Shown one piece after another: positions 3,394 to 48,530 of a stretch of DNA of 64,000 nucleotides. Every line of letters starts with the position of its first letter. Positions within the stretch are counted from its first letter, which is position 1. This DNA is from a virus. Location of the stretch: positions 99,356-163,355 of IMG/VR virus record IMGVR_UViG_3300012039_000002. One strand, written 5' to 3'. A model generated the notes under the pieces. The model did not search any database. It saw only the letters and a program-made list of their open reading frames with translations, and had not been told where the DNA came from. A program made the translations under genes and the position numbers.

Positions 3394-6300
3394 TTGGCCA
3401 TAGTTTTTCAAAACAAGAACTTTGCTAAGTCTCTCGTTGCGACCCTTCTTGGTTCTGGCGGTCTAAGCATATCTGTCACTGCTGGCACGGGAGTAAGGTT
3501 CCCTCAAACTGGCTTGTTTAAGCTAGTTATTTGGGGCGCTGCGTATTCGAATCCTTCCGACGATCCCAACAGAGAAATAGTTCACGCTACATTATCAGCA
3601 GCGGATACTTTCACTATCGTTAGAGCTCAAGAAGACACAGTTGCAGGCACTTGGGTCGTTGGCTCTAAAGTCGCACACACAATTACTGCTGGAAAAATAA
3701 AAGAAATAGAAGATGAAATCTCTGTCGGCGGATCTGGATACTCAGGCTTTTCTGGCTATTCTGGTGTTGCTGGAGGCACTGGAGTTGCGGGCGTTTCTGG
3801 CTATTCTGGCTCAGGTGTAAGTGGCTACTCTGGCTCAGGCGTAAGTGGCTATTCTGGCTCAGGAATAAGCGGATATTCTGGCGAAGGTACTTCAGGTTAT
3901 TCAGGCGCGGTCGGTGATATTGGTTTTTCTGGTTATTCTGGTTTTAGCGGTGCTCTTGGATTTCCAGGCGGCCCTGGCTTATCAGGTATGTCAGGCTATT
4001 CCGGCTTTGGAATAAGTGGCTACTCTGGCTCTGGAGTGTCTGGTTACAGCGGAGATGCTGGCGTATCGGGCTATTCTGGCAGTGACGCTCAAACGTCAGG
4101 CTATTCTGGTGCAAGTGGCTATTCTGGCAGCGATGCTCAAACGTCGGGTTATTCTGGTGCAAGTGGCTATTCTGGACCAATGGGTCCTGGCGGCGGAGAT
4201 TCTGGTTATTCTGGTTATTCAGGTAGCGATGCTCAAACGTCTGGTTATTCAGGTTTTTCTGGTTATTCTGGTGTCGGTTTTTCTGGCTCTGACGGTTCGT
4301 CAGGCTATTCAGGCTACTCTGGCGTCGGAACGTCTGGCTATTCTGGCGTAGGTTTTTCTGGAGCAGATGGTACGTCTGGTTACTCTGGCTCTGGAATTTC
4401 TGGTTATTCCGGCTCTGGTGTCTCCGGTTACTCTGGTTCTGGCGTCTCCGGCTACTCTGGCTCTGGAACTTCAGGCTATAGTGGAATAAGCGGCTACTCT
4501 GGCTCTGGTGTTTCTGGCTACAGTGGAGCATCCGGCTACTCTGGCTCAGGCGTCAGTGGCTACTCTGGCTCAGGCGTCAGTGGCTACTCTGGTTCTGGCG
4601 TATCAGGTTACTCTGGCTATTCAGGAATTTCAGGTTACTCCGGCTACTCTGGTTATTCTGGAGTTTCAGGATATTCTGGCATTTCTGGCTATTCAGGTTA
4701 TTCAGGATATAGCGGAACGACGGGTACAGGATTCGACTACTATCTAAGAGATATAGCGTCTGATGTTAGCGGATATGGTGAATTAACTAGATCGACACCG
4801 TCAGAAGCTCAAAATGACGACTCTGTTACTACAACAAGTGGTGCTCTGATCGAGGCATATGCAACTGAATCAGGCGATCCAAATGTCACGTCTATTTCTC
4901 CAGGAAAGTGGGCTTTCCACTTCTGGGGCTGGGTTAACAACAACGCGGGTTTACAGACATTTGTTTACGATGTTTATAAGAGAGACGCGTCGGGTGTCGA
5001 AACACTTCTCTTCACAAAGAGCAGTGCATCAATTGAATCTACCGCTTCTGGCACACCGACCGAACTTCAAGACGATTATTTTGATGGCAGTGGATTCACG
5101 ATTGCTAATACAGATCGACTAGTTCTAAAAGTAAATGGCTTTACTGATACGGGCACTAGAACAATCCATCTACTCCATTCAGGCCCGACATTTGCGTCTC
5201 ACTTTTCAACGCCACTCACAGTGGGTATCTCTGGCAGTTCAGGTTTTAGTGGTTATAGTGGAATTGGAACATCTGGTTACTCTGGAGTTTCAGGCTACAG
5301 TGGCATAAGCGGCTATTCTGGAATATCTGGCTATAGCGGTTATTCAGGCTCGGGTGTTAGTGGCTATTCTGGCTCTGGCGTAAGCGGCTATTCGGGCTCG
5401 GGTGTTTCTGGCTATTCCGGATATTCAGGTTCTGGAGTAAGCGGTTATTCTGGTTCCGGAGTTTCTGGTTATTCTGGAACATCTGGCTATAGTGGCTATT
5501 CTGGCTCTGGCGTTAGTGGCTATTCTGGTGTCGATGGCGTTTCTGGCTACTCTGGTTCTGGAACCTCTGGTTACTCTGGTTTAGCGCCAGAAACAATTAC
5601 TTATCTGCCAACATGGGTTTCAGGTATTTCAGGCAGTTATTCAGGCGGAAATCTTGCTTCAATACAGACTGCTTATGACGCCGATGACTACATTGTCTGG
5701 GAAGTATCAGGCGTCCCTGGATTCGTAGTCAATGTCGATTACTCAGGTGTAGCGGCTTTCAATAAGGTCCAGCTTAGAACTGGCTATACGAACCCTAATC
5801 ACACTGTCTTAGTAGAAGCATACAACAGTGGTGATACCACATGGGATTCACTGGGTTCTTTCAGAGGATTTGCTGGTGGTTATGCAACATTCTCTTATGA
5901 CGTCATTACAGATGTTCCATACATCCAAGCTGGAGGCTACGTACAGACGAGGTTTTACCATCAGTCGACGGGTAATCCTGCTGATGAGTTCTTGCTTGAC
6001 TACATGACATTACAACAGGCTACCGCCGGCCCTCAGGGTCCTGAAGGTCAGTCGGGAGTATCCGGATATAGTGGAGTTTCAGGTTATTCTGGAACGTCGG
6101 GATACTCTGGTTATTCAGGCGATAGTGGTTATTCAGGACATAGTGGAAGCGGTATTTCTGGCTATTCTGGTTCTGGAACATCTGGTTATTCTGGTGTCTC
6201 AGGCTATTCTGGCTATTCTGGTTATTCGGGAATTTCAGGCTACAGTGGTGCTTCGGGCTACTCTGGTTATTCGGGAATTTCAGGTTACTCTGGATCTTCT

Positions 6301-7911
6301 GGTTATTCAGGCGTAAGTGGTGAAAATTATCCATGGCAAGGTGCTTGGGCTTCTGGAACTGCTTATGTGCCGAATGATACAGTCGGCTATCTAGGCGCCG
6401 GTTATATCTCAATTCAAAGCGGTTCGGGCCAAACCCCAGTTCCTACGAGCACGGCATACTGGGATTTGCTTACTGCTTCAGGCTATTCAGGAATGTCGGG
6501 CTATTCTGGTTACTCTGGCTCTGGAGTTTCTGGTTATTCTGGAATTGGCACTTCTGGCTATTCGGGCATTTCAGGCGCCTCTGGCTATTCTGGAATTTCT
6601 GGCTACTCCGGTTATTCAGGTTCTGGTGTAAGCGGCTATTCTGGCGTCGGAACATCTGGTTATTCAGGAGATTCTGGTTATTCAGGAATTACATATCCTT
6701 GGGAAGGCGCATGGGTTTCAGGCACGCTTTATCAAGTAAATGACACTGTAAGTTATCTTGGTGCAGGTTTCATTTCTATTCAAAGCGGAGTAGGACAGAC
6801 GCCTGATCCTGCAGGCACTGCTTATTGGGATCTTGTTTCTAGCTCAGGCTATTCAGGAATTTCAGGATATTCTGGCGTTTCTGGTTATTCAGGAGCTTCA
6901 GGTTATAGTGGTTACTCTGGCTCTGGCGTAAGTGGCTATTCTGGCTCAGGTGTAAGCGGCTATTCTGGCGTCGGAACATCTGGCTACTCTGGCTATTCTG
7001 GAGTATCTGGTTACTCTGGTTATTCAGGAATAAGTGGCTATAGTGGCTCAGGCGTATCGGGTTACTCTGGATATAGTGGCTATTCAGGTTCTGGTGTATC
7101 TGGCTATTCTGGCTCAGGTGTCTCTGGTTACAGCGGCTATTCAGGTTCTGGAATATCAGGTTACTCTGGTTCTGGAACATCTGGCTACTCTGGAGCCGGA
7201 ACGTCTGGCTATTCTGGAGTAAGTGGCTATTCGGGTGTCTCTGGCTACTCTGGTTCAGGTGTAAGCGGTTACTCTGGTTCTGGTGTGTCGGGTTATAGTG
7301 GCTATTCTGGCGCAGGAACTTCAGGCTACTCTGGAGCTGGAACTTCCGGTTATTCTGGCTCTGGTGTTTCAGGTTACTCTGGCTATTCTGGCTCTGGCGT
7401 AAGCGGCTATTCTGGTGTTTCTGGTGCCGGAACGTCTGGCTATTCTGGTGGAACTGGTACCGATGGTACTTCTGGCTATTCTGGTGGAACTGGTACTGAT
7501 GGTACGTCAGGTTACTCTGGATGGTCAGGCGCCGGAACGTCTGGCTACTCAGGATATTCTGGTCGTGCAGGTGTTAGAACTTACACATGGGTTATTGATA
7601 CGCCTGTGGCAAGTAGTGCTCTTGCATCTGGAGTTCCTGGTCCGCGCCTTCGTGAAGCTCAGACCGCCACAAGAGTAGACGCATACACTCTAAACAACTC
7701 TGGATGGACGATCAACATTCAAGAGAGAAGTGCTATCGGTACTTCAGGTTCTAACCTCATTGCAAGCACTTACTTCCCAGCTGCTGGCGGTTCTGTGGCA
7801 AGCTTCTCAGATGCTGCTCTTGCTGCCGACAACTGGCTCTGGCTACAGATAGTCGCTGTCTCTGGAACTCCAGGTCTTGGCGTTGTCACTCTAAGCACAA
7901 CGGTACCATAA
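3394..7911 (+). CDS. giant collagen-like tail fibre with inserted binding domains
   Basis: A 1505-residue protein; the TTG start at 3394 is preceded by AAGGAGA. Residues 1-110 form a typical fibre N-terminal domain (FKLVIW...DDPNREIVHAT...FTIVRAQE...KVAHTITAG) likely to attach to the virion. GYSGxSG triplets then alternate with globular inserts: about 445-610 (beta-sandwich-like), 731-882 (a ~150-residue domain found twice more in the 8930 gene), and 977-1029 plus 1100-1149. The last two are small chitin-binding-like repeats with YPW(Q/E)GAW, a GxGYISIQSG-like core and a closing AYWDLL. The C-terminal 115 residues are non-repetitive. Role: host-surface adhesion. Confidence 0.88.
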   Translation: MAIVFQNKNFAKSLVATLLGSGGLSISVTAGTGVRFPQTGLFKLVIWGAAYSNPSDDPNREIVHATLSAADTFTIVRAQEDTVAGTWVVGSKVAHTITAGKIKEIEDEISVGGSGYSGFSGYSGVAGGTGVAGVSGYSGSGVSGYSGSGVSGYSGSGISGYSGEGTSGYSGAVGDIGFSGYSGFSGALGFPGGPGLSGMSGYSGFGISGYSGSGVSGYSGDAGVSGYSGSDAQTSGYSGASGYSGSDAQTSGYSGASGYSGPMGPGGGDSGYSGYSGSDAQTSGYSGFSGYSGVGFSGSDGSSGYSGYSGVGTSGYSGVGFSGADGTSGYSGSGISGYSGSGVSGYSGSGVSGYSGSGTSGYSGISGYSGSGVSGYSGASGYSGSGVSGYSGSGVSGYSGSGVSGYSGYSGISGYSGYSGYSGVSGYSGISGYSGYSGYSGTTGTGFDYYLRDIASDVSGYGELTRSTPSEAQNDDSVTTTSGALIEAYATESGDPNVTSISPGKWAFHFWGWVNNNAGLQTFVYDVYKRDASGVETLLFTKSSASIESTASGTPTELQDDYFDGSGFTIANTDRLVLKVNGFTDTGTRTIHLLHSGPTFASHFSTPLTVGISGSSGFSGYSGIGTSGYSGVSGYSGISGYSGISGYSGYSGSGVSGYSGSGVSGYSGSGVSGYSGYSGSGVSGYSGSGVSGYSGTSGYSGYSGSGVSGYSGVDGVSGYSGSGTSGYSGLAPETITYLPTWVSGISGSYSGGNLASIQTAYDADDYIVWEVSGVPGFVVNVDYSGVAAFNKVQLRTGYTNPNHTVLVEAYNSGDTTWDSLGSFRGFAGGYATFSYDVITDVPYIQAGGYVQTRFYHQSTGNPADEFLLDYMTLQQATAGPQGPEGQSGVSGYSGVSGYSGTSGYSGYSGDSGYSGHSGSGISGYSGSGTSGYSGVSGYSGYSGYSGISGYSGASGYSGYSGISGYSGSSGYSGVSGENYPWQGAWASGTAYVPNDTVGYLGAGYISIQSGSGQTPVPTSTAYWDLLTASGYSGMSGYSGYSGSGVSGYSGIGTSGYSGISGASGYSGISGYSGYSGSGVSGYSGVGTSGYSGDSGYSGITYPWEGAWVSGTLYQVNDTVSYLGAGFISIQSGVGQTPDPAGTAYWDLVSSSGYSGISGYSGVSGYSGASGYSGYSGSGVSGYSGSGVSGYSGVGTSGYSGYSGVSGYSGYSGISGYSGSGVSGYSGYSGYSGSGVSGYSGSGVSGYSGYSGSGISGYSGSGTSGYSGAGTSGYSGVSGYSGVSGYSGSGVSGYSGSGVSGYSGYSGAGTSGYSGAGTSGYSGSGVSGYSGYSGSGVSGYSGVSGAGTSGYSGGTGTDGTSGYSGGTGTDGTSGYSGWSGAGTSGYSGYSGRAGVRTYTWVIDTPVASSALASGVPGPRLREAQTATRVDAYTLNNSGWTINIQERSAIGTSGSNLIASTYFPAAGGSVASFSDAALAADNWLWLQIVAVSGTPGLGVVTLSTTVP

Positions 7912-8929: not shown

Positions 8930-11900
8930 ATGCAGCGCATATATAAGAGATTCCGCGAATTATTAGACGCTTCTCAGCCAGACGCTGGGAAGTTTTTGCG
9001 TTGGAGCACTAGCGGAACAATAGAAAATGCTGTGGGCGTTTCTGGCTATAGCGGCGATTCGGGCTACAGTGGTACGTCAGGAAAATCGGGATATTCCGGC
9101 TCTAGTGTATCGGGTTATTCTGGTAAGTCGGGCTACAGTGGTCGAAGTGGCTATTCGGGAATTTCCGGCTCAGGTGTTTCTGGCTATTCAGGCACTTCTG
9201 GCTATTCTGGTGCTCATGGTGTAATCGGTTTGTCGGGCACATCAGGATACTCGGGAAGATCAGGATCAGGAGTGTCTGGCTATTCAGGTTCTGGTACTTC
9301 TGGCTATAGTGGCTATTCCGGAGTTACTGGATCACAAGGCGCCTCAGGCAAGTCAGGCTATTCTGGTGCCGATGGAGTTAACGGAGCTTCAGGTCACTCT
9401 GGCTACTCAGGCAAGTCGGGTTATAGCGGCGCAGACGGGTCTATCGGTTATTCAGGTGAATCAGGCTATTCTGGCTTTTCTGGCTCCGGTGTTTCTGGTT
9501 TTTCTGGCTCCGGTGTTTCAGGCTATTCAGGAATTGGTACATCAGGATATTCTGGCTTAGATGCTCAGATGTCCGGCTATTCGGGTTATAGTGGTCTCAG
9601 CGGGGTTGGACTTGTCGGCCCTCCAGGCACTTCTGGTTATTCTGGAATTGGCACTTCTGGTTATTCTGGAATTGGAACTTCTGGTTATTCTGGAGTCTCA
9701 GGCTTAGGTGTGTCGGGTTATTCTGGAGTCTCTGGCTCTGGTGTGTCAGGCTACTCCGGCGTTGCGCCGTCGACTACGACATATCTTCCATCTTCAGTTT
9801 CAACAAACGTTGGGTCGTATGTATCAGGAACTTTGACGTCTATACAGATATTTGGTGACAATGATGTTTATGAGGTAGATGAAGTTTCTGGAGTTCCCGG
9901 ATTTGATATTCGCATTGATTTTTCTGGAGTATCCGGCTTTAATAAAGCGCAAATGAATATTTGGTACACGGGTGTTGCCAATCACATACCTAAAGTGCAA
10001 ATCTATAACAACAACACAACAAGCTGGGATAGCATAGGTTCTCTAAACGACGATACAGAACTTCAATCGCACGAATTTGCTGTAATAAATAGTGTTCCGT
10101 ACATATCAGCCGGCGCAGTTTCGACTAGAATTTATCACGAAACATCTGGCATAATAACGCACGACATTTTAGTAGATTATTTTGTACTTCAAAATGCTAT
10201 TGGCGGCGCTCAAGGCATCCCCGGCTTTATTGGTCCTTCTGGCTATAGCGGCTCTAGTACCTCGGGTTACAGTGGACTCTCAGGTTATTCAGGACTTTCT
10301 GGTACTTCCGGTTCTGGTACGTCAGGTTATAGCGGTTTTGTAGGAGTACCAGGAGGCCAAGGAATATCTGGCTATTCTGGCATAAGTGGTTATTCCGGCA
10401 TAAGTGGGACTTCTGGTTATTCCGGTATTGGAACATCCGGTTATTCTGGAATAAGTGGTTATAGCGGTTCAGGCGTTTCAGGCTATAGCGGAATTTCAGG
10501 CTCAGGCGTAAGCGGTTATTCTGGTTCCGGAGCTTCGGGTTACAGCGGCTATTCTGGTTTTGGAGTGTCGGGTTACAGTGGTTCAGGTGTAAGTGGCTAT
10601 TCTGGTTCTGGTATTTCCGGTTATTCGGGTGACATAGGAACTTCGGGCTACTCAGGATTAAACGCTGATTCAGGATCGCCCGGCGTATCCGGCTACTCTG
10701 GCTATTCTGGTATTGGCACGTCGGGCTATTCTGGTATCGGTACATCCGGGTATTCAGGCGATAGCGGTATTTCTGGCTACTCTGGTTCTGGTGTAAGTGG
10801 ATACTCTGGTTATAGCGGCGTTTCAGGAATTTCTGGCTACTCTGGTGTGTCTGGTTCTGGTGTGTCTGGTTATTCTGGTTACTCTGGTTCTGGTGTGTCC
10901 GGTTACTCTGGTGTCTCTGGCTTTTCTGGTTACTCTGGTTCTGGTTATTCTGGTTATTCTGGTTATTCTGGTTACTCTGGTTCTGGTGTATCTGGTTATT
11001 CTGGTTACTCTGGTTCTGGCGTGTCTGGTTATAGTGGCTATTCTGGCTCCGGTGTAAGTGGCTATTCTGGTTCTGGCGTATCAGGTTATAGTGGCTATTC
11101 TGGTTCTGGCGTATCGGGTTATTCAGGACAAGACGGTGCGACGGGAAATTCTGGCGACTCTGGCTACAGTGGCGCCTCGGGATACTCTGGCCAGGATGGT
11201 ATCATCGGCTTTAATGGCGACTCTGGCTACAGTGGCCTCTCAGGATACTCTGGCTACAGCGGCTACTCTGGCTCAGGTGTAAGTGGTTATAGTGGCTATT
11301 CTGGCTACAGTGGCGTTTCAGGATATTCTGGTTATAGTGGCATTTCGGGCTACAGCGGCTCTGGCATTTCGGGCTACAGTGGCTCTGGCGTAAGTGGCTA
11401 CAGCGGGCTCTCACCAGAAAATGTCACTTACTATGCTAGTGGCTTTGATGTGCTGACAGGAACTCTCACATCTGGGACTACTCTTTCTCTATCTGGCTTC
11501 AATGACGGTGACTTTGCTCATGTAGACGAAGTTGGAGGTGCTCCGGGATTTGACATTCGTATTGGCTTCTCTGGTGTCGACACTTTCAACGAAGTAATAC
11601 TAAATGCTTTTTATCTTGGTAGTGCTGGTCACATAGTAAAAGTTGACTTCTTCAATAATGCAACCTCTGGCTGGGATTCGTTTGGAACACTGAATGATGA
11701 CATAGCTTTTCAGGTCCACGAGTTCCCAATCCCAGATGATACTGATTATATTGCTACAGGTGGAGTGGTTGCTTCAAGAATATATCATTATTCTAATGGT
11801 CAAACGTCGCATGATTTTGACTTAGACTATTTTGTCATCCGAGATTCCATTGGCGGCTCTCAAGGAATAGAAGGCATATCTGGCTACTCTGGCTACTCTG

Positions 11901-14005
11901 GTTATTCGGGTTCGGGCGTCTCAGGCTATTCGGGTTCTGGTGTCTCAGGTTATTCTGGCTCAGGCGTAAGCGGCTATTCTGGTTCTGGAACATCAGGCTA
12001 TTCTGGTGTCGGAACGTCTGGCTACTCGGGAGCTTCCGGCTATTCTGGCATCTCAGGTATTCAATATCCGTGGCAGGGCGCTTGGGTGTCGGGTACTGCT
12101 TATATACCGAACGATTGTATTGGTTATCTTGGTGCGTCATACATTTCGATTCAGAGTGGTTCGGGTCAAACCCCAGTCCCTACTGGAACAGCATATTGGG
12201 ATCTACTGGCGTCGTCAGGTTACTCTGGCATTTCAGGTTACTCTGGCTCCGGTGTTTCGGGCTACTCAGGTTCAGGCACTTCTGGTTATTCTGGCTATAG
12301 CGGAAAATCTGGCTATAGCGGCTATTCAGGCTATTCAGGCTCTGGTGTTTCAGGTTACTCAGGTTCTGGAACATCAGGCTATTCAGGCTATAGTGGTTAT
12401 TCAGGATATTCTGGACATTCTGGTTACTCTGGTGTCAGCGGTTATTCAGGTGTCTCTGGCTATTCGGGTATTAGTGGTTCTGCGCCGTATATCGGAGTAA
12501 ATACTCATACATCTTCAGATCTCATGGGTACATATCCTGCTGGTATGTCTTTGATGACAGTGAACGTAGGACTCTCTACTGGTTGGCCTGAACCTGTAGG
12601 TTCTGCAAATTGTCAAGGAGAAGTAATTACTTATTATGACAATACATATGGTGCCGACGGCATAGGATTAGGTTATCAAGAATATCATGTTAGAGGAGGT
12701 CAACCAAATTCAAATACTTCAAGATATTATAGAAAACCAGATACAGCTGAAGCTGGTTCAGCATGGACAGCTTGGAGTGAAGGAATAGGCATTTCTGGAT
12801 ACAGTGGTTATAGCGGCTACTCTGGATATTCTGGCTACTCAGGATTCAGTGGTTATTCTGGAAACTCAGGATACTCTGGCTACTCTGGCTCAGGTGTAAG
12901 TGGTTATAGTGGCTATTCTGGCTACTCTGGCTCTGGAACTTCTGGCTACAGTGGCTTTAGTGGAATTTCAGGTTACTCTGGCTTCTCTGGTATCAGTGGT
13001 TACTCTGGCTATTCCGGTTCTGGTGTTAGTGGCTATTCCGGATATTCCGGTTCTGGTGTTAGTGGCTATTCCGGATCGCCTAACTCTAATGCAGACACAG
13101 TAGACGGACAGCATAATTACGATTTCTGGAGATATTGTGGTAATAGAACGACTGATGCTACACCGACTGACGTATCTAATTTGGTTGGGGGATTTACTTT
13201 TTATACACAATTTGTCTCAGACGTATCTGGTTATCCAGAAACAACGTACGGCCCAGTGTGGGGTTTCGCCGATAATCTTAATGGTTCTGTATTTTACGGC
13301 TGGGAAATGTATAAGGGTTACAGCGCTAGTTTGTATCTTAGGACACAGACTGGCTTAACTACATGGTCTAGTTGGTCTATACTTGGATCATCAGGAAACA
13401 GCGGTTATTCCGGTTTCTCTGGTATTAGTGGCTATTCAGGATCTGGCGTTTCTGGTTATTCAGGATTCAGCGGCTACTCAGGTGTTTCTGGCTACTCTGG
13501 CTCTGGTGTCTCTGGCTACTCCGGAACTGTAGCCGCGGGATCTATTACAGGATCAGGAACAAGCGGGTATATCACTAAATGGGGGAGTGCTTCTGGTATA
13601 ACTTCTTCTCTTCATCTTCGTGAAGACGCTGAAGGAGTGTTCATTGGTGGCAATCTTTCTAGCGGCGCTGCATACTTTCATATAGATTCTGACACAAAAG
13701 ACGACGTACCGTTTAAGGTTACAGGAACTCAGGGAGAGCTGTTTTCAGTTACAGACAATCTAGATTCACTTCTTCAATCAGTCAACGACATCACAGGACT
13801 GCCAGTATTTGAAGTTTATGCTGATGACCGCGTAGTAGTACACGGGGCAACTGAGGTGGTGGCGAAGGACGCTCCGTCAACTCCGGCAGCTGATAATGCG
13901 AGACTTTACGTGACGGCTTCCGGCGCAACACCAAACAGGGAAATCGCTCTTAATGTAAAATTCGAAGATGGAACAGTAGTGATATTATCATCGGTATTGG
14001 TGTAA
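8930..14005 (+). CDS. giant collagen-like tail fibre with several globular inserts
   Basis: A 1691-residue protein. A short head (residues 1-35, MQRIYKRFRELLD...KFLRWS) may dock to the virion. GYSGxSG triplets are interrupted by: a ~150-residue beta domain at about 279-428 and again at 827-977; a chitin-binding-like YPWQGAW...YWDLL unit at about 1044-1094; an APYIGVNTH domain at 1184-1287; and an ADTVDGQH domain at 1386-1487, the last motif being common in phage fibres. The final ~160 residues (from ITGSGTSGYITKWGS) resemble common fibre tips. Inserts shared with the 3394 gene indicate domain exchange. Confidence 0.88.
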   Translation: MQRIYKRFRELLDASQPDAGKFLRWSTSGTIENAVGVSGYSGDSGYSGTSGKSGYSGSSVSGYSGKSGYSGRSGYSGISGSGVSGYSGTSGYSGAHGVIGLSGTSGYSGRSGSGVSGYSGSGTSGYSGYSGVTGSQGASGKSGYSGADGVNGASGHSGYSGKSGYSGADGSIGYSGESGYSGFSGSGVSGFSGSGVSGYSGIGTSGYSGLDAQMSGYSGYSGLSGVGLVGPPGTSGYSGIGTSGYSGIGTSGYSGVSGLGVSGYSGVSGSGVSGYSGVAPSTTTYLPSSVSTNVGSYVSGTLTSIQIFGDNDVYEVDEVSGVPGFDIRIDFSGVSGFNKAQMNIWYTGVANHIPKVQIYNNNTTSWDSIGSLNDDTELQSHEFAVINSVPYISAGAVSTRIYHETSGIITHDILVDYFVLQNAIGGAQGIPGFIGPSGYSGSSTSGYSGLSGYSGLSGTSGSGTSGYSGFVGVPGGQGISGYSGISGYSGISGTSGYSGIGTSGYSGISGYSGSGVSGYSGISGSGVSGYSGSGASGYSGYSGFGVSGYSGSGVSGYSGSGISGYSGDIGTSGYSGLNADSGSPGVSGYSGYSGIGTSGYSGIGTSGYSGDSGISGYSGSGVSGYSGYSGVSGISGYSGVSGSGVSGYSGYSGSGVSGYSGVSGFSGYSGSGYSGYSGYSGYSGSGVSGYSGYSGSGVSGYSGYSGSGVSGYSGSGVSGYSGYSGSGVSGYSGQDGATGNSGDSGYSGASGYSGQDGIIGFNGDSGYSGLSGYSGYSGYSGSGVSGYSGYSGYSGVSGYSGYSGISGYSGSGISGYSGSGVSGYSGLSPENVTYYASGFDVLTGTLTSGTTLSLSGFNDGDFAHVDEVGGAPGFDIRIGFSGVDTFNEVILNAFYLGSAGHIVKVDFFNNATSGWDSFGTLNDDIAFQVHEFPIPDDTDYIATGGVVASRIYHYSNGQTSHDFDLDYFVIRDSIGGSQGIEGISGYSGYSGYSGSGVSGYSGSGVSGYSGSGVSGYSGSGTSGYSGVGTSGYSGASGYSGISGIQYPWQGAWVSGTAYIPNDCIGYLGASYISIQSGSGQTPVPTGTAYWDLLASSGYSGISGYSGSGVSGYSGSGTSGYSGYSGKSGYSGYSGYSGSGVSGYSGSGTSGYSGYSGYSGYSGHSGYSGVSGYSGVSGYSGISGSAPYIGVNTHTSSDLMGTYPAGMSLMTVNVGLSTGWPEPVGSANCQGEVITYYDNTYGADGIGLGYQEYHVRGGQPNSNTSRYYRKPDTAEAGSAWTAWSEGIGISGYSGYSGYSGYSGYSGFSGYSGNSGYSGYSGSGVSGYSGYSGYSGSGTSGYSGFSGISGYSGFSGISGYSGYSGSGVSGYSGYSGSGVSGYSGSPNSNADTVDGQHNYDFWRYCGNRTTDATPTDVSNLVGGFTFYTQFVSDVSGYPETTYGPVWGFADNLNGSVFYGWEMYKGYSASLYLRTQTGLTTWSSWSILGSSGNSGYSGFSGISGYSGSGVSGYSGFSGYSGVSGYSGSGVSGYSGTVAAGSITGSGTSGYITKWGSASGITSSLHLREDAEGVFIGGNLSSGAAYFHIDSDTKDDVPFKVTGTQGELFSVTDNLDSLLQSVNDITGLPVFEVYADDRVVVHGATEVVAKDAPSTPAADNARLYVTASGATPNREIALNVKFEDGTVVILSSVLV

Positions 14006-18428: not shown

Positions 18429-19646
18429 TTGAAAGTATTATTAATTCATCCGCCGCACCCTAATTCTACTGATGACAGGCTTGATCCTCCAATGGGCCTT
18501 CTTTATATTGCATCTCATTTAGAGAAAAACTATGTAGACGTGGATGTTTTAGATTTGTCGGGAAACAGCGATTGGGACGTTGCTATACCATTTGCTGACA
18601 TTTATGGGATTACGTCTTATATCGCCACGCTGGGTATAACTGAATCGATAGCAAAGCTGTGCAGATTAAAAAACGCAAAAGCTCAGGTAATTATCGGCGG
18701 AGCTCACGCATCTGTGCGTCCGCAAGACTTTCCGTATGCCGACAAGGTGGTTAGAGGCTATGGTGAAGCTCCCATGCTGGCTCTTTGTGGCAAACAAGCG
18801 ACAGTGGACCTATTTGAGTTCCCTGCATTCAATAAAGTTAATTTAGGATCCTATTCAAGGCTAATAGACGGAAAGCCCTCGGTTCCCTTTTTAACATCTA
18901 GAGGCTGCCCATTCAAATGCAGCTTTTGTGGTCTGGCTTCTATGCATAATATAAATGGTCGGTACCACATGATGAAGCCTGACGTGGCTGCAACGCAGCT
19001 ATGCCGTATTAAGAATGAACTTGGCATTGATAGATTAAACTTCCAAGATGACATTTTTACGATGAATCGCCCTAGACTCTTTAAAATACTAGAGGCAGTA
19101 AAGGAGCTAGGATTTAGATTCTCTTGTATGGGTAGGGCAGGCTACGACACTGAAGAGACTTACGAGAAACTAGCTGAGTCAGGATGTCAACAGATAGCAT
19201 GGGGAATAGAAACAGGTTCGCAATACATGCTTGACCGTATGAGAAAAGAAATAAAAGTTCAAGACAACTATAACGTAATTAAATGGGCTAAGAAATATGG
19301 TATAGTATCTAGGGCTTTCTTTATGATAGGATTTCCCGGAGAGACTAGAGAAACGATAGAGGAAACAAAACGTTTCATAGAAAAATCAGATCCTGACCAA
19401 TACTTTGTTTCTAACTTTACGCCGTATCCTGGAACAGAAGTAGCTGAAAATCCAGAATGGTACGGAATTACTGGCATGTCTCATGATTATAGCAACTATT
19501 TTCAGGTTTCAAAAGACGGCCCTGGCGGATGTAACATAGATACAGAGTGGCTTTCTAGAGAGCAATTTAGAGAACTAGAACTAGAGTTTAGACAATGGAT
19601 TAAGTCCCGAGGCATGAGAGGAGCTAAGCAAAAATATGAAGGTTAG
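18429..19646 (+). CDS. cobalamin-binding-type radical SAM enzyme
   Basis: A 405-residue protein; TTG start behind GGAG. The N-terminal Rossmann-like part (MKVLLIHPPHP, DPPMGLLYIASHL, DIYGITSY, VIIGGAHASVRP, VRGYGE) is that of B12-binding radical SAM proteins, though I see no DxHxxG cobalamin-ligand motif. The iron-sulphur motif is classical: C160-PFK-C164-SF-C167. The core continues with FQDDIFTMN, GIETGSQ and FMIGFPGET. Members of this class methylate or rearrange unactivated carbons in lipids, sugars or peptides. It overlaps the next glycosyltransferase gene by 11 bp, so a joint role in glycan or fibre modification is likely. Confidence 0.85.
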   Translation: MKVLLIHPPHPNSTDDRLDPPMGLLYIASHLEKNYVDVDVLDLSGNSDWDVAIPFADIYGITSYIATLGITESIAKLCRLKNAKAQVIIGGAHASVRPQDFPYADKVVRGYGEAPMLALCGKQATVDLFEFPAFNKVNLGSYSRLIDGKPSVPFLTSRGCPFKCSFCGLASMHNINGRYHMMKPDVAATQLCRIKNELGIDRLNFQDDIFTMNRPRLFKILEAVKELGFRFSCMGRAGYDTEETYEKLAESGCQQIAWGIETGSQYMLDRMRKEIKVQDNYNVIKWAKKYGIVSRAFFMIGFPGETRETIEETKRFIEKSDPDQYFVSNFTPYPGTEVAENPEWYGITGMSHDYSNYFQVSKDGPGGCNIDTEWLSREQFRELELEFRQWIKSRGMRGAKQKYEG

Positions 19647-43343: not shown

Positions 43344-43763
43344 ATGGAAGACATAAAAGGTTTCTTCGGCAAGAACAGATTTCTGTCGAATTTCTACCCT
43401 GCTGTGATAGAATACGAGGGTGTGAAATATCCAACAGTTGAACACGCTTATCAGGCGGCCAAAACTAAGGATTGGGTTCTCAGAGGACACATTTCGAGGA
43501 TGGAGACACCCTCGCAGGCTAAAAGGGCTGGTGCAACACTCAATCCGCCCGACTGGCATGAAAGAAGTCTCCAGACAATGGAGCTTCTTGTAAGGCTGAA
43601 GTTCACAACGCACACCAATCTCAAATACAAATTAATAGCTACAGGTCTTGCTGATCTTGAAGAGACTAATGAATGGCAAGACATGTTTTGGGGCGTGTGC
43701 AATGGGGTTGGTAGCAATCATCTTGGAAAGATTCTGATGAAGGTAAGAGGAGAGTTGTGGTAA
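43344..43763 (+). CDS. NADAR-domain protein (YbiA-like)
   Basis: A 139-residue protein with the NADAR core: GKNRFLSNFYPA, YEGVKYPTVEHAYQAAKT, QAKRAGATLNPPDWHE, MELLVRLKFT, LIATGLADLEETNEWQDMFWG, NHLGKILMKVR. NADAR proteins are N-glycosidases acting on ADP-ribose-type or riboflavin-pathway compounds. Some remove ADP-ribose from guanine and so reverse DarT-type toxins. Beside RtcB, and with a phage ART at 29168, this one may undo host defence or self ADP-ribosylation (inference). Confidence 0.88.
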   Translation: MEDIKGFFGKNRFLSNFYPAVIEYEGVKYPTVEHAYQAAKTKDWVLRGHISRMETPSQAKRAGATLNPPDWHERSLQTMELLVRLKFTTHTNLKYKLIATGLADLEETNEWQDMFWGVCNGVGSNHLGKILMKVRGELW

Positions 43764-44863
43764 TGCCTAATGCGGATAAAATAAAGACCCTGATTCCAAT
43801 GCATGAGATTGAGCAGGGTGCACAGCAACAGATATACGACAACGCAAACATTCCGTTTGTGAAGACTATAGCTGTCATGCCAGACTGTCATCAGGGATAC
43901 GATTTGCCCATTGGAGCTGTGGCTCTAGTCGAAGATCATATTTCGCCTTCGTATGTCGGTTATGACATAGGTTGCGGTATGATCTGCTACGAAATACCAC
44001 AAAGCAACATCGAAAACTTTCACACAAAAGATAGACAGCATCTCTTTGAGGAAATAAAAGAATGCATTCCCGTAGGCTTCAACGAACATGAGAATCCATA
44101 TGCTAAGTCTTTTTATTCGGCTTCTGGTGATAAAGAACTCACCGACAAAGTCAATGCTAAGTTGACTAAGCAGAATGGCACACTTGGTGGTGGCAATCAT
44201 TTCATTGAGCTTGGCTATAACGCAAACGGAAGCGTCTTCATTACCATACACTCAGGCTCCAGACGCCCTGGGTGGGAGATTGGCAATTGGTATATGAATG
44301 AAGCTAAGAAAGACAACCAGCTTTATCACAAGTTCTTCCACTTGGACTCTTCATTGGGTAAGGCTTATTTAGCTGACATGAACTTCGCTCTCGAGTTCGC
44401 TTTGGCTAATAGATTGGACATGCTTAAGGAAATCATCAATCTCATTACTGGTAGCAGGACTCTATTTGAGTATATAAATGAAAACCACAATCACGCTATA
44501 GTGTGGGACGCTGGTGTGCTCCACCGTAAGGGTGCTACACCGGCAGAAAAGGGTCAGCCTGGCGTTATACCTGGCTCAATGAAAACTGGAGTCTATATAA
44601 CTGAGGGCTTGGGCAACTGGAACTACCTTGTGTCAGCGTCTCATGGCGCTGGCCGTAAGATGTCTCGTGGCTTTGCTAAGAAGAACATTACGTTGGAGTC
44701 GTTTAAAGAACAGATGGAAGGTATCATTGCCAATGTAGATGTAACGACTCTAGACGAGGCACCTGACGCTTATAAGGATTTAGATTACGTAATTAACGCG
44801 CAGAAGGGCATAGTTGTGAATGTCGTCGACTTCATTCAACCCATAATCAACATCAAGGGGTGA
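43763..44863 (+). CDS. rtcB: RtcB-type RNA ligase
   Basis: A 366-residue protein; ATG 43763 overlaps the upstream TAA (TAATG). Hallmarks: DCHQGYDLPIGAV; YDIGCGM with the metal-binding Cys71; GGGNHFIEL with His146; TIHSGSR with His163; NHNH at 241-244; SASHGAGRKMSR, whose His294 is the expected GMP-accepting residue. RtcB joins 2',3'-cyclic phosphate or 3'-phosphate RNA to 5'-OH ends using GTP and Mn, repairing ribotoxin-cut tRNA or rRNA. It is somewhat shorter than E. coli RtcB (about 408 residues). It is chemically complementary to the Rnl1-type ligase at 23201. Confidence 0.95.
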   Translation: MPNADKIKTLIPMHEIEQGAQQQIYDNANIPFVKTIAVMPDCHQGYDLPIGAVALVEDHISPSYVGYDIGCGMICYEIPQSNIENFHTKDRQHLFEEIKECIPVGFNEHENPYAKSFYSASGDKELTDKVNAKLTKQNGTLGGGNHFIELGYNANGSVFITIHSGSRRPGWEIGNWYMNEAKKDNQLYHKFFHLDSSLGKAYLADMNFALEFALANRLDMLKEIINLITGSRTLFEYINENHNHAIVWDAGVLHRKGATPAEKGQPGVIPGSMKTGVYITEGLGNWNYLVSASHGAGRKMSRGFAKKNITLESFKEQMEGIIANVDVTTLDEAPDAYKDLDYVINAQKGIVVNVVDFIQPIINIKG

Positions 44864-44867
44864 CGCT

Positions 44868-45056
44868 ATGAAATGCATTAGCTGTTCATTTGCAAAGTTT
44901 GAGAGGGATCCCGACCCTTATGATTGGTTTTGTGATGACGACACTAAAATCATTTGCACAGCGGGCAAGAAACAACGGCAGGTTTGTGGCGGTGTTCGTC
45001 CATATGAGTTGAAAAAAGTCGAGGCTCCTAAGTGGTGTATTCTCCGCGATAAATAG
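44868..45056 (+). CDS. small Cys-rich, probably zinc-binding protein
   Basis: A 62-residue protein with six Cys: C-I-S-C at the start, then WFCDDD, IICTAGKK, VCGGVRPYE and KWCILR. The spacing fits a compact zinc or Fe-S fold. Short proteins of this sort are frequent in phage early regions. It is last in the NADAR-RtcB operon. Confidence 0.55.
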   Translation: MKCISCSFAKFERDPDPYDWFCDDDTKIICTAGKKQRQVCGGVRPYELKKVEAPKWCILRDK

Positions 45057-45115: not shown

Positions 45116-46192
45116 ATGATCACACTCGCTGACAAGACGAATAAGTTCGTGTCTATGTTTGACCCTAAAACAGGATTCTATGTCCGTACAGGCATTATTG
45201 AGAACGGAAAAGACACGGGTGTCGATCCCTTCATGACTACTTACCCTCAGCTTATTGATGTCGGAATCATGGGCTCTTGTGAGTCGGGAAGACTAGGCCT
45301 GTGCAAACAAGCGGGAATTCAGTGCTACCAGGACGGTCTCAATAAGTCTCTCCCAGACATGACGCTCGACAACTTCAAGAAGATTGTGGATGAGTCTAAG
45401 GGCAAGGTATTTCAAATCGCTCTTGGTGGTAGAGGTAATCCCAACAAGCACGCTCAGTTCGGTGAAATCCTCAAATATTGTCGAGGCAACGGTATTGTGC
45501 CCAACTACACTACTTCAGGAATGAATCTCACGGATGAAGAGGTCGCTCTTACAAAGAAGTATTGTGGTGCTGTAGCGGTTTCATGGCAGAGAGCACAGCA
45601 TACTCTTGATGCTATCAGGATGTTTGTGAAGGCAGGTGTGAAGACTAACATCCACTATGTCCTTGGTAATTTCAGTATTGAAGAGGCGGTTGATAATCTT
45701 TATGGCATTGATTGCAATTTTCCCAAAGGTATCAATGCTGTAGTTTTCTTGGCTCATAAGCCCGTAGGTTTAGGCGATGAGAAGAATGTGTTGCGGGCTA
45801 ACGATCCTTTAGTGAAGAGATTCTTTGATCTCATTGATAACAATTCTTTCCCATTCAAGATTGGGTTTGATTCTTGCAGCGTTCCCGGCATCCTCAACTA
45901 CACTGCTAAGATAGATAAAGCGTCTATTGACACTTGTGAGGGTGGAAGATGGAGCACGTACATTTCATCTGACATGGTGGCTCTCCCATGCTCATTCGAC
46001 CAAGAACATAGGTGGGGTGTGCAGTTGGATGAGAATACTACAATTCAAAATGCGTGGAATGGAGCGTATTTTGAGGATTTTAGGAATTCCTTCCGTACTT
46101 CATGCAGAGGGTGTAAAGATGTGATAGAATGCAAGGGCGGTTGTCCAATTAAAAAGCAGGTTGTGCTTTGCGACAGGAAAGAGAAATCATGA
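45116..46192 (+). CDS. SPASM radical SAM enzyme with atypical cluster spacing
   Basis: A 358-residue protein; ATG behind GAGGAG. The expected CxxxCxxC is replaced by C55-x7-C63-x6-C70-Y, still placed after the first strand (QLIDVGIMGSC). The fold is supported by ALGGRGNPNKHAQFGEIL (GGE-like strand), NGIVPNYTTSG and VKTNIHYVLG. A SPASM-type C-terminus holds C274, C292, then C330-x2-C333-x5-C339-x3-C343 and C352, the classical spacing for auxiliary Fe-S clusters. SPASM enzymes usually modify peptides or proteins. Its TGA overlaps the ATG of the first NSSSSSF gene (ATGA), so the downstream proteins are the obvious candidate substrates. Confidence 0.82.
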   Translation: MITLADKTNKFVSMFDPKTGFYVRTGIIENGKDTGVDPFMTTYPQLIDVGIMGSCESGRLGLCKQAGIQCYQDGLNKSLPDMTLDNFKKIVDESKGKVFQIALGGRGNPNKHAQFGEILKYCRGNGIVPNYTTSGMNLTDEEVALTKKYCGAVAVSWQRAQHTLDAIRMFVKAGVKTNIHYVLGNFSIEEAVDNLYGIDCNFPKGINAVVFLAHKPVGLGDEKNVLRANDPLVKRFFDLIDNNSFPFKIGFDSCSVPGILNYTAKIDKASIDTCEGGRWSTYISSDMVALPCSFDQEHRWGVQLDENTTIQNAWNGAYFEDFRNSFRTSCRGCKDVIECKGGCPIKKQVVLCDRKEKS

Positions 46193-46596
46193 AAATTAGA
46201 CTCGATTTTGTAACTAATAGCTCTTCTTCGGCTTTCATAATCAAGAAGAAGAGGCTTACTGCCCGGCAGATATACATGATAAACAACCATGTGTATTTTG
46301 GCTCCCTCTTCAATGGTATCTATGCTAAGCTTGTGGGATCAGATCAGGCGCCATTCTATATGGACGAATGGAAGATTGAAGAGGATGAGGCTGAGATCCG
46401 TGGAGAAACTTCTATGGATAACTTTGGCATGGAAGAATTCTTTGAGCATATTGGCGTAGAAGATAAATTCGTCAAGTGGAGCGAAGATAATTATCATGAC
46501 TTAGACACGAAATACAAGATTCCTTGGCATGGCATGACAAATAAAGAGATTCACAAAAGAGTAGTGGCGGCCAACAAAAAGAAAAGTCTTAAGTGA
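46189..46596 (+). CDS. NSSSSSF-tag protein 1
   Basis: A 135-residue protein starting at ATG 46189, in a 4-bp overlap with the radical SAM stop. The N-terminal tag is MKIRLDFVTNSSSSAF, the most divergent of the six (Leu for Thr, Ala for the last Ser). The body contains IYMINNHVYFGSLFNG and EIRGETSMDNFGMEEFFEHIGVEDKFVKW; the last part aligns with the end of tag protein 4. Function unknown; probably a substrate or partner of the upstream enzyme. Confidence 0.75.
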   Translation: MKIRLDFVTNSSSSAFIIKKKRLTARQIYMINNHVYFGSLFNGIYAKLVGSDQAPFYMDEWKIEEDEAEIRGETSMDNFGMEEFFEHIGVEDKFVKWSEDNYHDLDTKYKIPWHGMTNKEIHKRVVAANKKKSLK

Positions 46597-46604
46597 GGTA
46601 AAGC

Positions 46605-46952
46605 ATGAAAATAAGAACAGACTTCGTTACAAATTCAAGTTCAAGCTCCTTCATCATAGCCGTAAAGTCAGATCTGACCAAAGCGGAAGCAAAGGACGTT
46701 GTAGATAAATATTTTAAGACGCAAATCGAAGAGCTTATGGGAAACGTAGATCGAGATACAGAATCGCTCGAAGAAGAAATCAAGGCAGATCTTGTTTCGA
46801 CAATTATGGAAGCTAAAAGCGGCATGAAGCTTGATGACTGGAGAGTTTCTGGCGGCGACGCGCGCTCTGATGAATACGACGCTTCTTGTGTGCTCCACAT
46901 GTCCGGTGAATTCAACAGCTCAAAGGTGAAGTTCAAGAATGTGGGGTGCTAA
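46605..46952 (+). CDS. NSSSSSF-tag protein 2
   Basis: A 115-residue protein with the tag MKIRTDFVTNSSSSSFIIAV. The body is helical and acidic (KAEAKDVVDKYFKTQIEELMGNVDRDTESLEEEIKADLV), ending in strand-like SGEFNSSKVKFKNVGC with a C-terminal Cys. The body is unrelated by eye to the other five. GGTAAAG ribosome site. Confidence 0.72.
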   Translation: MKIRTDFVTNSSSSSFIIAVKSDLTKAEAKDVVDKYFKTQIEELMGNVDRDTESLEEEIKADLVSTIMEAKSGMKLDDWRVSGGDARSDEYDASCVLHMSGEFNSSKVKFKNVGC

Positions 46953-47318
46953 ATGAAGGTCAGAACCGACTTCGTTACGAACTCGAGCAGCTCAAGTTTC
47001 ATTGTCGTTGCGAAAAACAAGAGTGCGCTCAAGACTTCCGTTACTATTCCCGTTGACTTTAACACTCTGGCGTCCAAAGAGATTAAGTCAAAGAAAGACG
47101 CTTTGGAATATAGCAAGGACAACGATCTCGACGCTGAAACAACTGAACGCATGCTTGCTGAAATAGAAAAGGGCAATTCGTTGTTTGATATTCATGTAAG
47201 TTCGGACGATGATGAGCCTGTTAGCAGATACATCCACGAAACAACCGAAGGGGATTATGAAGACGTTCGGCGCCTTCTCCCCGGTATGGTTGTGTTCAAG
47301 ACGGAGTATTCGTATTGA
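46953..47318 (+). CDS. NSSSSSF-tag protein 3
   Basis: A 121-residue protein whose ATG follows the previous stop directly. The tag is MKVRTDFVTNSSSSSFIVV. The acidic body (FNTLASKEIKSKKDALEYSKDNDLDAETTERMLAEIEKG..DIHVSSDDDEPVSRYIHETTEGDYEDVRRLLPGMV) is split here only for description. Unknown function; tight spacing argues for one operon and matched amounts. Confidence 0.7.
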   Translation: MKVRTDFVTNSSSSSFIVVAKNKSALKTSVTIPVDFNTLASKEIKSKKDALEYSKDNDLDAETTERMLAEIEKGNSLFDIHVSSDDDEPVSRYIHETTEGDYEDVRRLLPGMVVFKTEYSY

Positions 47319-47650
47319 AAATCAGAACTGATTTTGTCACGAATTCAAGCAGCTCAAGCTTTGTAATTGCTAAAGCTGCCGTAACTGAAGAGCAGATTCA
47401 GGCATTTAGAGGCTTGAATAACTTTTTGCGGAACAAGTATTTTGAACAAGGCCAAGACATTTGGCAACCAGGCTTTACTTCAAAAGAAGGCTTTGATTTT
47501 GATGCTGTCTGGTGTGGCGATTATTGGACTATAAGAGAAGACGAAAACTACATTGAAGGCTACACATCTATGGACAATGGCGACTTAGGTAAATTCATTA
47601 AGGAAATAGGCATCGACACTAAACTAATGAGGTTCTCTAATGAAGGTTAG
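47315..47650 (+). CDS. NSSSSSF-tag protein 4
   Basis: A 111-residue protein starting with TTG in a TTGA overlap with the previous stop. The tag is MKIRTDFVTNSSSSSFVIA. The C-terminal part (YWTIREDENYIEGYTSMDN...FIKEIGIDTKLMRFS) aligns with tag protein 1, so these two share a real body domain. Use of TTG at an ATG-rich locus shows that translation here depends on coupling. Confidence 0.72.
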   Translation: MKIRTDFVTNSSSSSFVIAKAAVTEEQIQAFRGLNNFLRNKYFEQGQDIWQPGFTSKEGFDFDAVWCGDYWTIREDENYIEGYTSMDNGDLGKFIKEIGIDTKLMRFSNEG

Positions 47651-48152
47651 GACTGATTTTGTGACCAACAGCTCTTCAAGCTCATTCATTGTGGCATTTG
47701 AAAAGGTGCCTGAGACCATTAGCGAGATGAAGAAGCTGCTTTTCAAAGAGAATGAGCTTAAGTTCGATTGCTTCCCATACTACGACGAGCTCTATTCTGC
47801 CAATGATATCGCTATCAAGATTATCAACGACATGCCAGGGCATGAAGTCAAGAAGGCATCTGATCTTCTCGATGTCATTGACGGCGGTGATGATTGCGAT
47901 GACTATACTACTATTCCAACGCCTAAGTTCCCTGAGTTTGTAAAAGACGAGAAGCTCCGCAATAAGCAGTGGAAGGCATATGAGGATCTTGCCAGCGCTA
48001 GGGCCAAAGACATCGCAAAGAACTTTATGACTAAGAACAAGGGCAAGAGAATTTTCACTTTTGAATATAGTGATCACGATCGTCTTGGCGCCGCCATTGA
48101 ACATGGTGGTATTCTTGAAAGACTGGACTGCATCAGAATATCTCGACACTAA
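47640..48152 (+). CDS. NSSSSSF-tag protein 5
   Basis: A 170-residue protein overlapping the previous gene by 11 bp. The tag is MKVRTDFVTNSSSSSFIVAF. It is the longest of the set. The body has KKLLFKENELKFDCFPYYDEL, an acidic DVIDGGDDCDDYTT, and a Lys-rich C-terminal half ending HDRLGAAIEHGGILERLDCIRISRH. Unknown function. Confidence 0.72.
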   Translation: MKVRTDFVTNSSSSSFIVAFEKVPETISEMKKLLFKENELKFDCFPYYDELYSANDIAIKIINDMPGHEVKKASDLLDVIDGGDDCDDYTTIPTPKFPEFVKDEKLRNKQWKAYEDLASARAKDIAKNFMTKNKGKRIFTFEYSDHDRLGAAIEHGGILERLDCIRISRH

Positions 48153-48167
48153 GAGGTGAGGTGAGGC

Positions 48168-48530
48168 ATGAAAATTAGAACTGATTTTGTAACTAACAGT
48201 AGCTCAAGTTCGTTTGTTGTGTTTGGCGTAGGTACAGATATCCTGAAGCTTAATATAACAGATGAGGAGCTTGAAGAGAAGTATGACGGTAGCATGAACG
48301 AATATCTTTACGAAAAAGCCGAAGGCACGTCTCTTAAGGCCGGCTCGGCTTATTATGATAGCGACGAGCACTCTGTAGGCCTCAGCCCTGAGACTTTGCT
48401 CAAGAAATTCGGTGACAGAAAAATCAGTGAAATTCCGCAAATAGTAGCTGAAGAGATTGAGAAAGCATTCGGTGTAAAAATCGACCCAAAGAAAGTGGGC
48501 TACATCGAAGAGGCAAGTTATAACGGGTGA
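48168..48530 (+). CDS. NSSSSSF-tag protein 6
   Basis: A 120-residue protein with the tag MKIRTDFVTNSSSSSFVVFG, behind GAGGTGAGGC. The body holds ITDEELEEKYDGSMNEYLYEKAEGTSLKAGSAY...HSVGLSPETLLKKFG and ends VGYIEEASYNG. It closes the tandem array. As in the other copies, the tag codons differ at almost every third position, so the peptide itself is under selection. Confidence 0.72.
   Translation: MKIRTDFVTNSSSSSFVVFGVGTDILKLNITDEELEEKYDGSMNEYLYEKAEGTSLKAGSAYYDSDEHSVGLSPETLLKKFGDRKISEIPQIVAEEIEKAFGVKIDPKKVGYIEEASYNG

Follow-up and report, generated by a model that had tools for sequence, protein, structure and literature searches.

The ORF at positions 45116-46192 (plus strand) of the DNA analysed here raises two questions: can a protein with the cluster motif CX7CX6C be a radical SAM enzyme, and what would its substrate be? 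The window, as the whole stretch of 64,000 nucleotides is called below, belongs to a viral record of 163 kb, and the virus infects bacteria. Elsewhere in the window, very long collagen-like GYSG/GVSG repeat proteins are encoded at 2-2218, 3394-7911 and 8930-14005.

Cluster motif and predicted fold

The ORF has an ATG start and encodes a radical SAM/SPASM protein of 358 aa. The first-pass annotation had pointed to C55, C63 and C70 followed by a tyrosine, with long gaps between them, and the translation indeed reads C55-ESGRLGL-C63-KQAGIQ-C70-Y71, i.e., CX7CX6CY (codons at 45278-45328, plus strand), in place of the classical CX3CX2C. The remaining motifs it had considered intact (ALGGRGNP, TTSG and the SPASM pattern CX2CX5CX3C) were all found, the last one as C330-X2-C333-X5-C339-X3-C343. 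The SPASM region (45875-46171, plus strand) contains a seven-cysteine pattern (C274, C292, C330, C333, C339, C343 and C352) plus C254, so that C254, C274, C292 and C352 together with the CX2CX5CX3C cysteines make up a complete two-cluster SPASM set. By analogy to anSME, C254, C274, C292 and C343 would be the Aux I ligands, and C330, C333, C339 and C352 the Aux II ligands. A second radical SAM-like protein of the window (18429-19646) has the classical motif CPFKCSFC (CX3CX2C) and is encoded near glycosyltransferase-like genes.

At the level of family profiles the similarity is weak. The SPASM profile PF13186 matched the enzyme with E=0.0029 and 18.3 bits, below its cut-off of 21.5, and TIGR04085 gave 18.1 against a cut-off of 27, which one homologue (L051) exceeds with 34.8. 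Weak similarity to radical SAM proteins was also seen in the match of the NCBIfam mycofactocin maturase to part of the enzyme (E=2e-8), and a sequence search of the PDB returned pentatricopeptide noise only. The AlphaFold2 model, built from 35 aligned sequences (pLDDT 88.5, pTM 0.90), has the partial TIM barrel of radical SAM enzymes followed by a SPASM domain, in agreement with the original assignment of the protein as a radical SAM enzyme. The model matched 166 PDB chains at Z >= 8, the top ones all being radical SAM/SPASM enzymes. The best match was SuiB (Z 26.4, 312 residues, rmsd 3.0), followed by SkfB (Z 23.7), CteB (21.2), anSME (20.8), ChlB (20.8) and PqqE (20.3). The fold predicted for the enzyme is that of RiPP and sulfatase maturases. 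Residues 1-42 (45116-45241, plus strand) were modelled as three short strands aligning with the start of SuiB and SkfB, with no full RRE domain. The RiPP recognition element, a leader-binding domain, is located in this N-terminal part of SuiB and SkfB, and the alignment is a weak indication, suggestive only, that the strands may correspond to the leader-binding part.

Spacing of the cluster cysteines among homologues

Homologues were collected from 172 RB16-like phages, 38 IMG/VR loci, 11 bacterial or MAG contigs and further genomes. The single-sequence search of IMG/VR with the enzyme gave no close relatives, and an alignment-based search was required to find the loci. The comparison of homologues proposed by the first-pass annotation came out in favor of the motif: C55, C70 and Y71 are invariant among 94 aligned homologues, and a middle cysteine is present in each row. 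Conservation of this extent rules out a chance motif. One homologue, L084, was excluded from the 94-row set, as its middle motif cysteine is apparently lost (CLPNENYFSEGILTHNCY); this sequence could be degenerate or reflect an alignment error.

The spacing itself is variable. CX7CX6C is found in 24 of the 94 homologues, coming from phages, Clostridia, Erysipelotrichaceae, Oscillospiraceae and other MAGs. The other spacings are CX3CX2C (32 homologues), CX7CX2C (18), CX5CX3C (7), CX12CX2C (4) and CX6CX2C (3), the rarest being CX7CX8C, CX13CX2C, CX8CX2C and CX17CX2C with 1-2 each. Because the enzyme has CX7CX6C and the classical CX3CX2C occurs in 32 of its 94 homologues, its radical SAM membership rests on homology and fold rather than on the motif. 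In a family tree computed without the motif columns, homologues with a longer second gap (X6, X3 or X8) form a single clade of 33 rows (SH-aLRT 93) with the spacings CX7CX6C, CX5CX3C and CX7CX8C. The lengthened second gap is not a trait of the whole family, since the more distant relatives have CX3CX2C or CX(6-17)CX2C. The tree requires at least 19 changes of spacing. The radical SAM cluster loop, usually treated as a signature, can therefore change in spacing several times in a single family without loss of the three cysteines.

The Aux I cysteines (C254, C274, C292 and C343) are kept family-wide, C343 being present in 93 of the 94 homologues. The 33-member clade has the full set of Aux II cysteines (C330, C333, C339 and C352), of which most other homologues have only some. 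This pattern bears on the idea that SAM cleavage disappeared with the expansion of the loop, leaving the protein as a pseudo-radical-SAM scaffold or tag-binding chaperone. Such proteins do have a precedent in the NCBIfam class named 'pseudo-SAM/SPASM' (TIGR04347), and the spacing is unlike every classical motif, but a dead enzyme would not need the three cluster cysteines, the Aux I and all the Aux II ligands found in 33/33 clade members, and we consider loss of activity very improbable. In an active enzyme, C55, C63 and C70 would be the ligands of a site-differentiated, SAM-cleaving [4Fe-4S] cluster, held in a loop that would be four residues longer than the classical one on either side of the middle cysteine.

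Tagged proteins next to the enzyme

Directly 3' of the enzyme, six ORFs on the same strand (46189-48530) encode proteins with a common 16-residue N-terminal tag. All of them start with [ML]K[IV]R[TL]DFVTNSSSS[SA]F, summarized as MK[IV]RxDFVTNSSSSSF, and each has its own ribosome-binding-like sequence. Tag protein 1 (MKIRLDFVTNSSSSAF..., 135 aa, 46189-46596) has a start codon overlapping the enzyme stop codon. It is followed by tag proteins 2 (MKIRTDFVTNSSSSSF..., 46605-46952), 3 (MKVRTDFVTNSSSSSF..., 46953-47318), 4 (LKIRTDFVTNSSSSSF..., TTG start, 47315-47650), 5 (MKVRTDFVTNSSSSSF..., 170 aa, 47640-48152) and 6 (MKIRTDFVTNSSSSSF..., 48168-48530), all on the plus strand. The bodies behind the tags are mostly unrelated; a clear match was seen only between tag proteins 1 and 4 (42% over 45 aa), and a tblastn search of phages with one of the window tag proteins gave no match.

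The association of enzyme and tag extends far beyond the window. In a forward test, IMG/VR was scanned for the tag DNA pattern only, and the enzyme family turned out to be encoded in 42 of the 50 viral records obtained, the other eight having no enzyme. The controls were 41 large viral records picked by a deformylase pattern and a random 16-mer. The enzyme was found in one of these, with four tags right behind it, and the other 40 contained one tag-pattern match. In the reverse test, the strict tag pattern was present in 36 of 48 enzyme-bearing records, the rest being mostly short fragments or records with tags outside the strict pattern, e.g., NSSSTSF. No tag was seen within the sequenced fragments of one group of phage loci with CX3CX2C enzymes (L025, L028-L031). 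Tags follow the enzyme in most viral loci, in up to eight copies. Of 50,697 phage records, 175 encode the RB16 tag protein and 173 the enzyme, with a nearly identical breakdown by organism; the tag genes of RB16-like phages lie ~20 kb away from the enzyme, and in Vibrio phage D479 three tags are located no more than 9 kb from the enzyme. When bacterial loci were selected solely for the presence of the enzyme, a tag gene was adjacent in 10/11 and 15/16 of them (25/27 in total), and 872 kb of control DNA contained one tag look-alike. All 124 tags near an enzyme share its strand, and the tag family is the sole neighbour common to most loci (27/33). Enzyme family and tag thus co-occur, usually side by side on one strand, in unrelated phage groups and in bacteria.

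Two other neighbours in the window were considered as parts of the system and rejected, as other loci generally do not have them next to the enzyme. The RtcB-family RNA ligase directly upstream (43757-44863) is near the enzyme in just one other examined locus (L033). A small Cys-rich ORF of 62 aa, located between these two genes (44868-45056), is absent from the other loci examined.

As the enzyme is nearly always found beside tag-bearing genes, we propose that it modifies the tag chemically: it is probably a radical SAM/SPASM peptide maturase, the substrate of which is the N-terminal tag of the mostly unrelated downstream proteins. Like the precursor genes of RaS-RiPP systems, the tag genes are adjacent genes with a conserved leader, and their products are putative substrates. 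By analogy, the enzyme would work like a RiPP maturase, although the label itself is debatable, given that its putative substrates are folded and are not known to lose a leader. The flexible MKxRxxFVxN part could serve as the recognition leader, and hydrogen abstraction might take place in or beside the invariant Asn10-Ser11-Ser12 core, a guess based on its conservation. Candidate chemistries are, for example, the oxidation, epimerisation or crosslinking of a Ser/Asn. The modified tag would then serve one purpose for all its carriers, whose bodies differ, be it by marking them for localisation, by providing a reactive group or by acting as a covalent handle.

The general form of the tag is MKxRx[D/G]FV[T/S]NSSSSS[F/Y]. 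A profile was made from 123 tags of enzyme-chosen or enzyme-confirmed loci, aligned on an anchor independent of the serine run (F/Y16 as anchored). N10 and S11 are present in 123/123, S12 in 121, S13 in 115, S14 in 109 and S15 in 116 of the tags, figures that lean somewhat towards the tag pattern because loci L174-L203 were first reached through it. The bacterial variants NSSSTSF, NSSSTNF and NSSSEVF show that positions 14-15 are changeable. Tags of the D6/T9 form accompany enzymes of the expanded-loop clade, and tags of the G6/S9 form those of the other main clade, as expected of co-evolving partners; shared ancestry alone could also produce such matching. Selection acts on the tag as protein, since the six window tags differ by 154 synonymous versus 40 non-synonymous codon differences and display 40 switches between TCN and AGY serine codons, each taking more than one base change. 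The codon switching also rules out a DNA-level repeat or a shared translation signal as the explanation of the tag.

The tag proteins are mostly 100-250 aa long and fall into 126 body clusters. Essentially no Pfam match was obtained for the 99 representatives scanned, and these share no common core motif (7% mean column identity). Tag protein 5 was modelled with a folded body and with disorder at residues 1-9; no PDB or viral structural match was above noise. Its relatives, which range from RB16-like to clostridial phages, have D145, E154-H155 and H170 invariant, possibly forming a metal-binding catalytic site. Large tag proteins of about 150-717 aa are encoded in Firmicutes loci (L359-L361, L363-L366, L347 and L047); some have a hydrophobic stretch right behind the tag, and the one of L366 has a BRCT domain.

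A conserved N-terminal leader with a variable remainder and several precursors per enzyme is the logic of RiPPs, and the tag might accordingly be a docking leader only, the enzyme modifying the variable bodies as a promiscuous RiPP maturase does its many cores. Yet the bodies are large domains lacking such a core, and invariance peaks at N10-S11-S12, more than simple docking needs. We therefore regard docking alone as unlikely and prefer modification of the tag itself.

In several bacterial loci (L043, L049, L051, L053, L054, L055, L362, L367 and L369), enzyme and tag share an operon with a STAND NTPase, the effector part of which is changeable, and with a protein 119-148 aa in length; the single tag protein of the operon has 131-142 aa. 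The loci come from Alteromonadaceae, Geobacteraceae, Pseudovibrio, Rhodobacterales, Oscillospiraceae, a prophage and further Clostridia. SMEK_N and NACHT are found in L043 and L051, and a trypsin-like peptidase effector with a metallo-beta-lactamase gene in L362 and L369. L049 and L367 have a membrane N-terminus and weak NACHT or nSTAND matches; the NACHT/STAND score of L369 is also weak, and the L362 protein at the NTPase position has no Pfam match. The STAND NTPase with its effector domain is a feature of the bacterial relatives only and is not present in the window. Assignment of the window locus to Fxs, Avs or viperin systems was unsupported, PADLOC giving pVip at E=0.011 only. Exchange of effectors is typical of phage defence, and the bacterial operons look like candidate phage defence systems.

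These bacterial loci also bear on a different role of the tag, in which it would target or package its carriers (e.g., have them loaded into the capsid, injected or sent to a phage compartment), with the enzyme merely co-travelling and not acting on it. One N-terminal tag on many unrelated bodies does resemble a sorting signal, and its residues 1-9 are predicted to be disordered. Capsid loading, however, would be senseless in STAND operons and other chromosomal loci of bacteria, and the tag is the only neighbour that the enzyme has in most loci. A pure targeting role is in our opinion decidedly unlikely.

If the tag is modified, its occurrence in STAND-NTPase operons suggests that the modification matters in phage defence. 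More tentatively, with the chances somewhat against it, the locus may represent a new protein-marking system, in which one elastic-loop enzyme (CX3-17CX2-8C) would put the same modification on the NSS tag of dozens of unrelated proteins, in phages on arrays of small proteins and in bacteria coupled to STAND-NTPase immunity, the mark itself maybe being a signal contested between phage and host. In any case, a common feature has been assigned to the 126 body clusters, and a putative substrate, hence a direct test, is now at hand for a radical SAM family that no fewer than 170 sequenced phages of enterobacteria encode, along with many uncultured phages.

Comparison with known systems

No mention of NSSSSSF, of CX7CX6C or of Pseudotevenvirus together with radical SAM was found in the literature searched, which covered neither subscription papers nor preprints. 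Within the searched papers and family libraries there was also no published account of the enzyme-tag pair, nor were the STAND/tag/enzyme operons found described in that literature. The remark of the first-pass annotation that the CX7CX6C spacing was not known to it as described holds to the same extent. Its statement that non-classical spacings occur in a few families, ThiC and PhnJ among them, agrees with the published list of ThiC (CX2CX4C), PhnJ (CX2CX21CX5C), HmdB (CX5CX2C) and QueE (CX14CX2C) (PMC4389238). The enzyme differs from all four in its spacing, and the four are enzymes of other kinds. QueE and HmdB lengthen the first gap only, as do many members of the enzyme family, and since QueE does so, a longer loop can still carry a normal cluster.

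A relative already annotated is the 'radical SAM protein' phrog_7293 of RB16, RB43, Lw1 and KP15, a homologue over 91% of the length with 26-30% identity. The RB16-like phages carrying it also encode two tag proteins. It differs from the enzyme in its CX7CX2C spacing, incomplete Aux II ligands, a tag of the GFVSN type and tag genes that are not adjacent.

Modules of an FxSxx peptide and a radical SAM/SPASM enzyme have been described within bacterial conflict systems (Kaur et al., 2020, PMC7159879). In them, too, the enzyme is accompanied by a small partner that carries a motif, and the setting is an NTPase-based conflict system. The motif is FxSxx on a peptide in those modules, whereas the proteins studied here have the N-terminal NSSSSSF tag in common and not FxSxx. 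Unlike the FxSxx modules, the tag pair goes with STAND NTPases having SMEK, trypsin-like and membrane effectors, and it is also found in multi-copy arrays of phages.

The enzyme is like SuiB, SkfB, CteB and anSME in its predicted fold and SPASM cluster ligands, and just as their genes adjoin those of their own peptide or protein substrates, the enzyme gene adjoins the tag genes. It differs from them in having CX7CX6C instead of CX3CX2C, in an identity of 15-18%, in the absence of a full RRE domain and in its proposed substrate, an N-terminal tag on folded proteins. In RiPP substrates the core is usually small and the leader is lost, in contrast to the tag, which is followed by a folded protein of roughly 100-700 aa.
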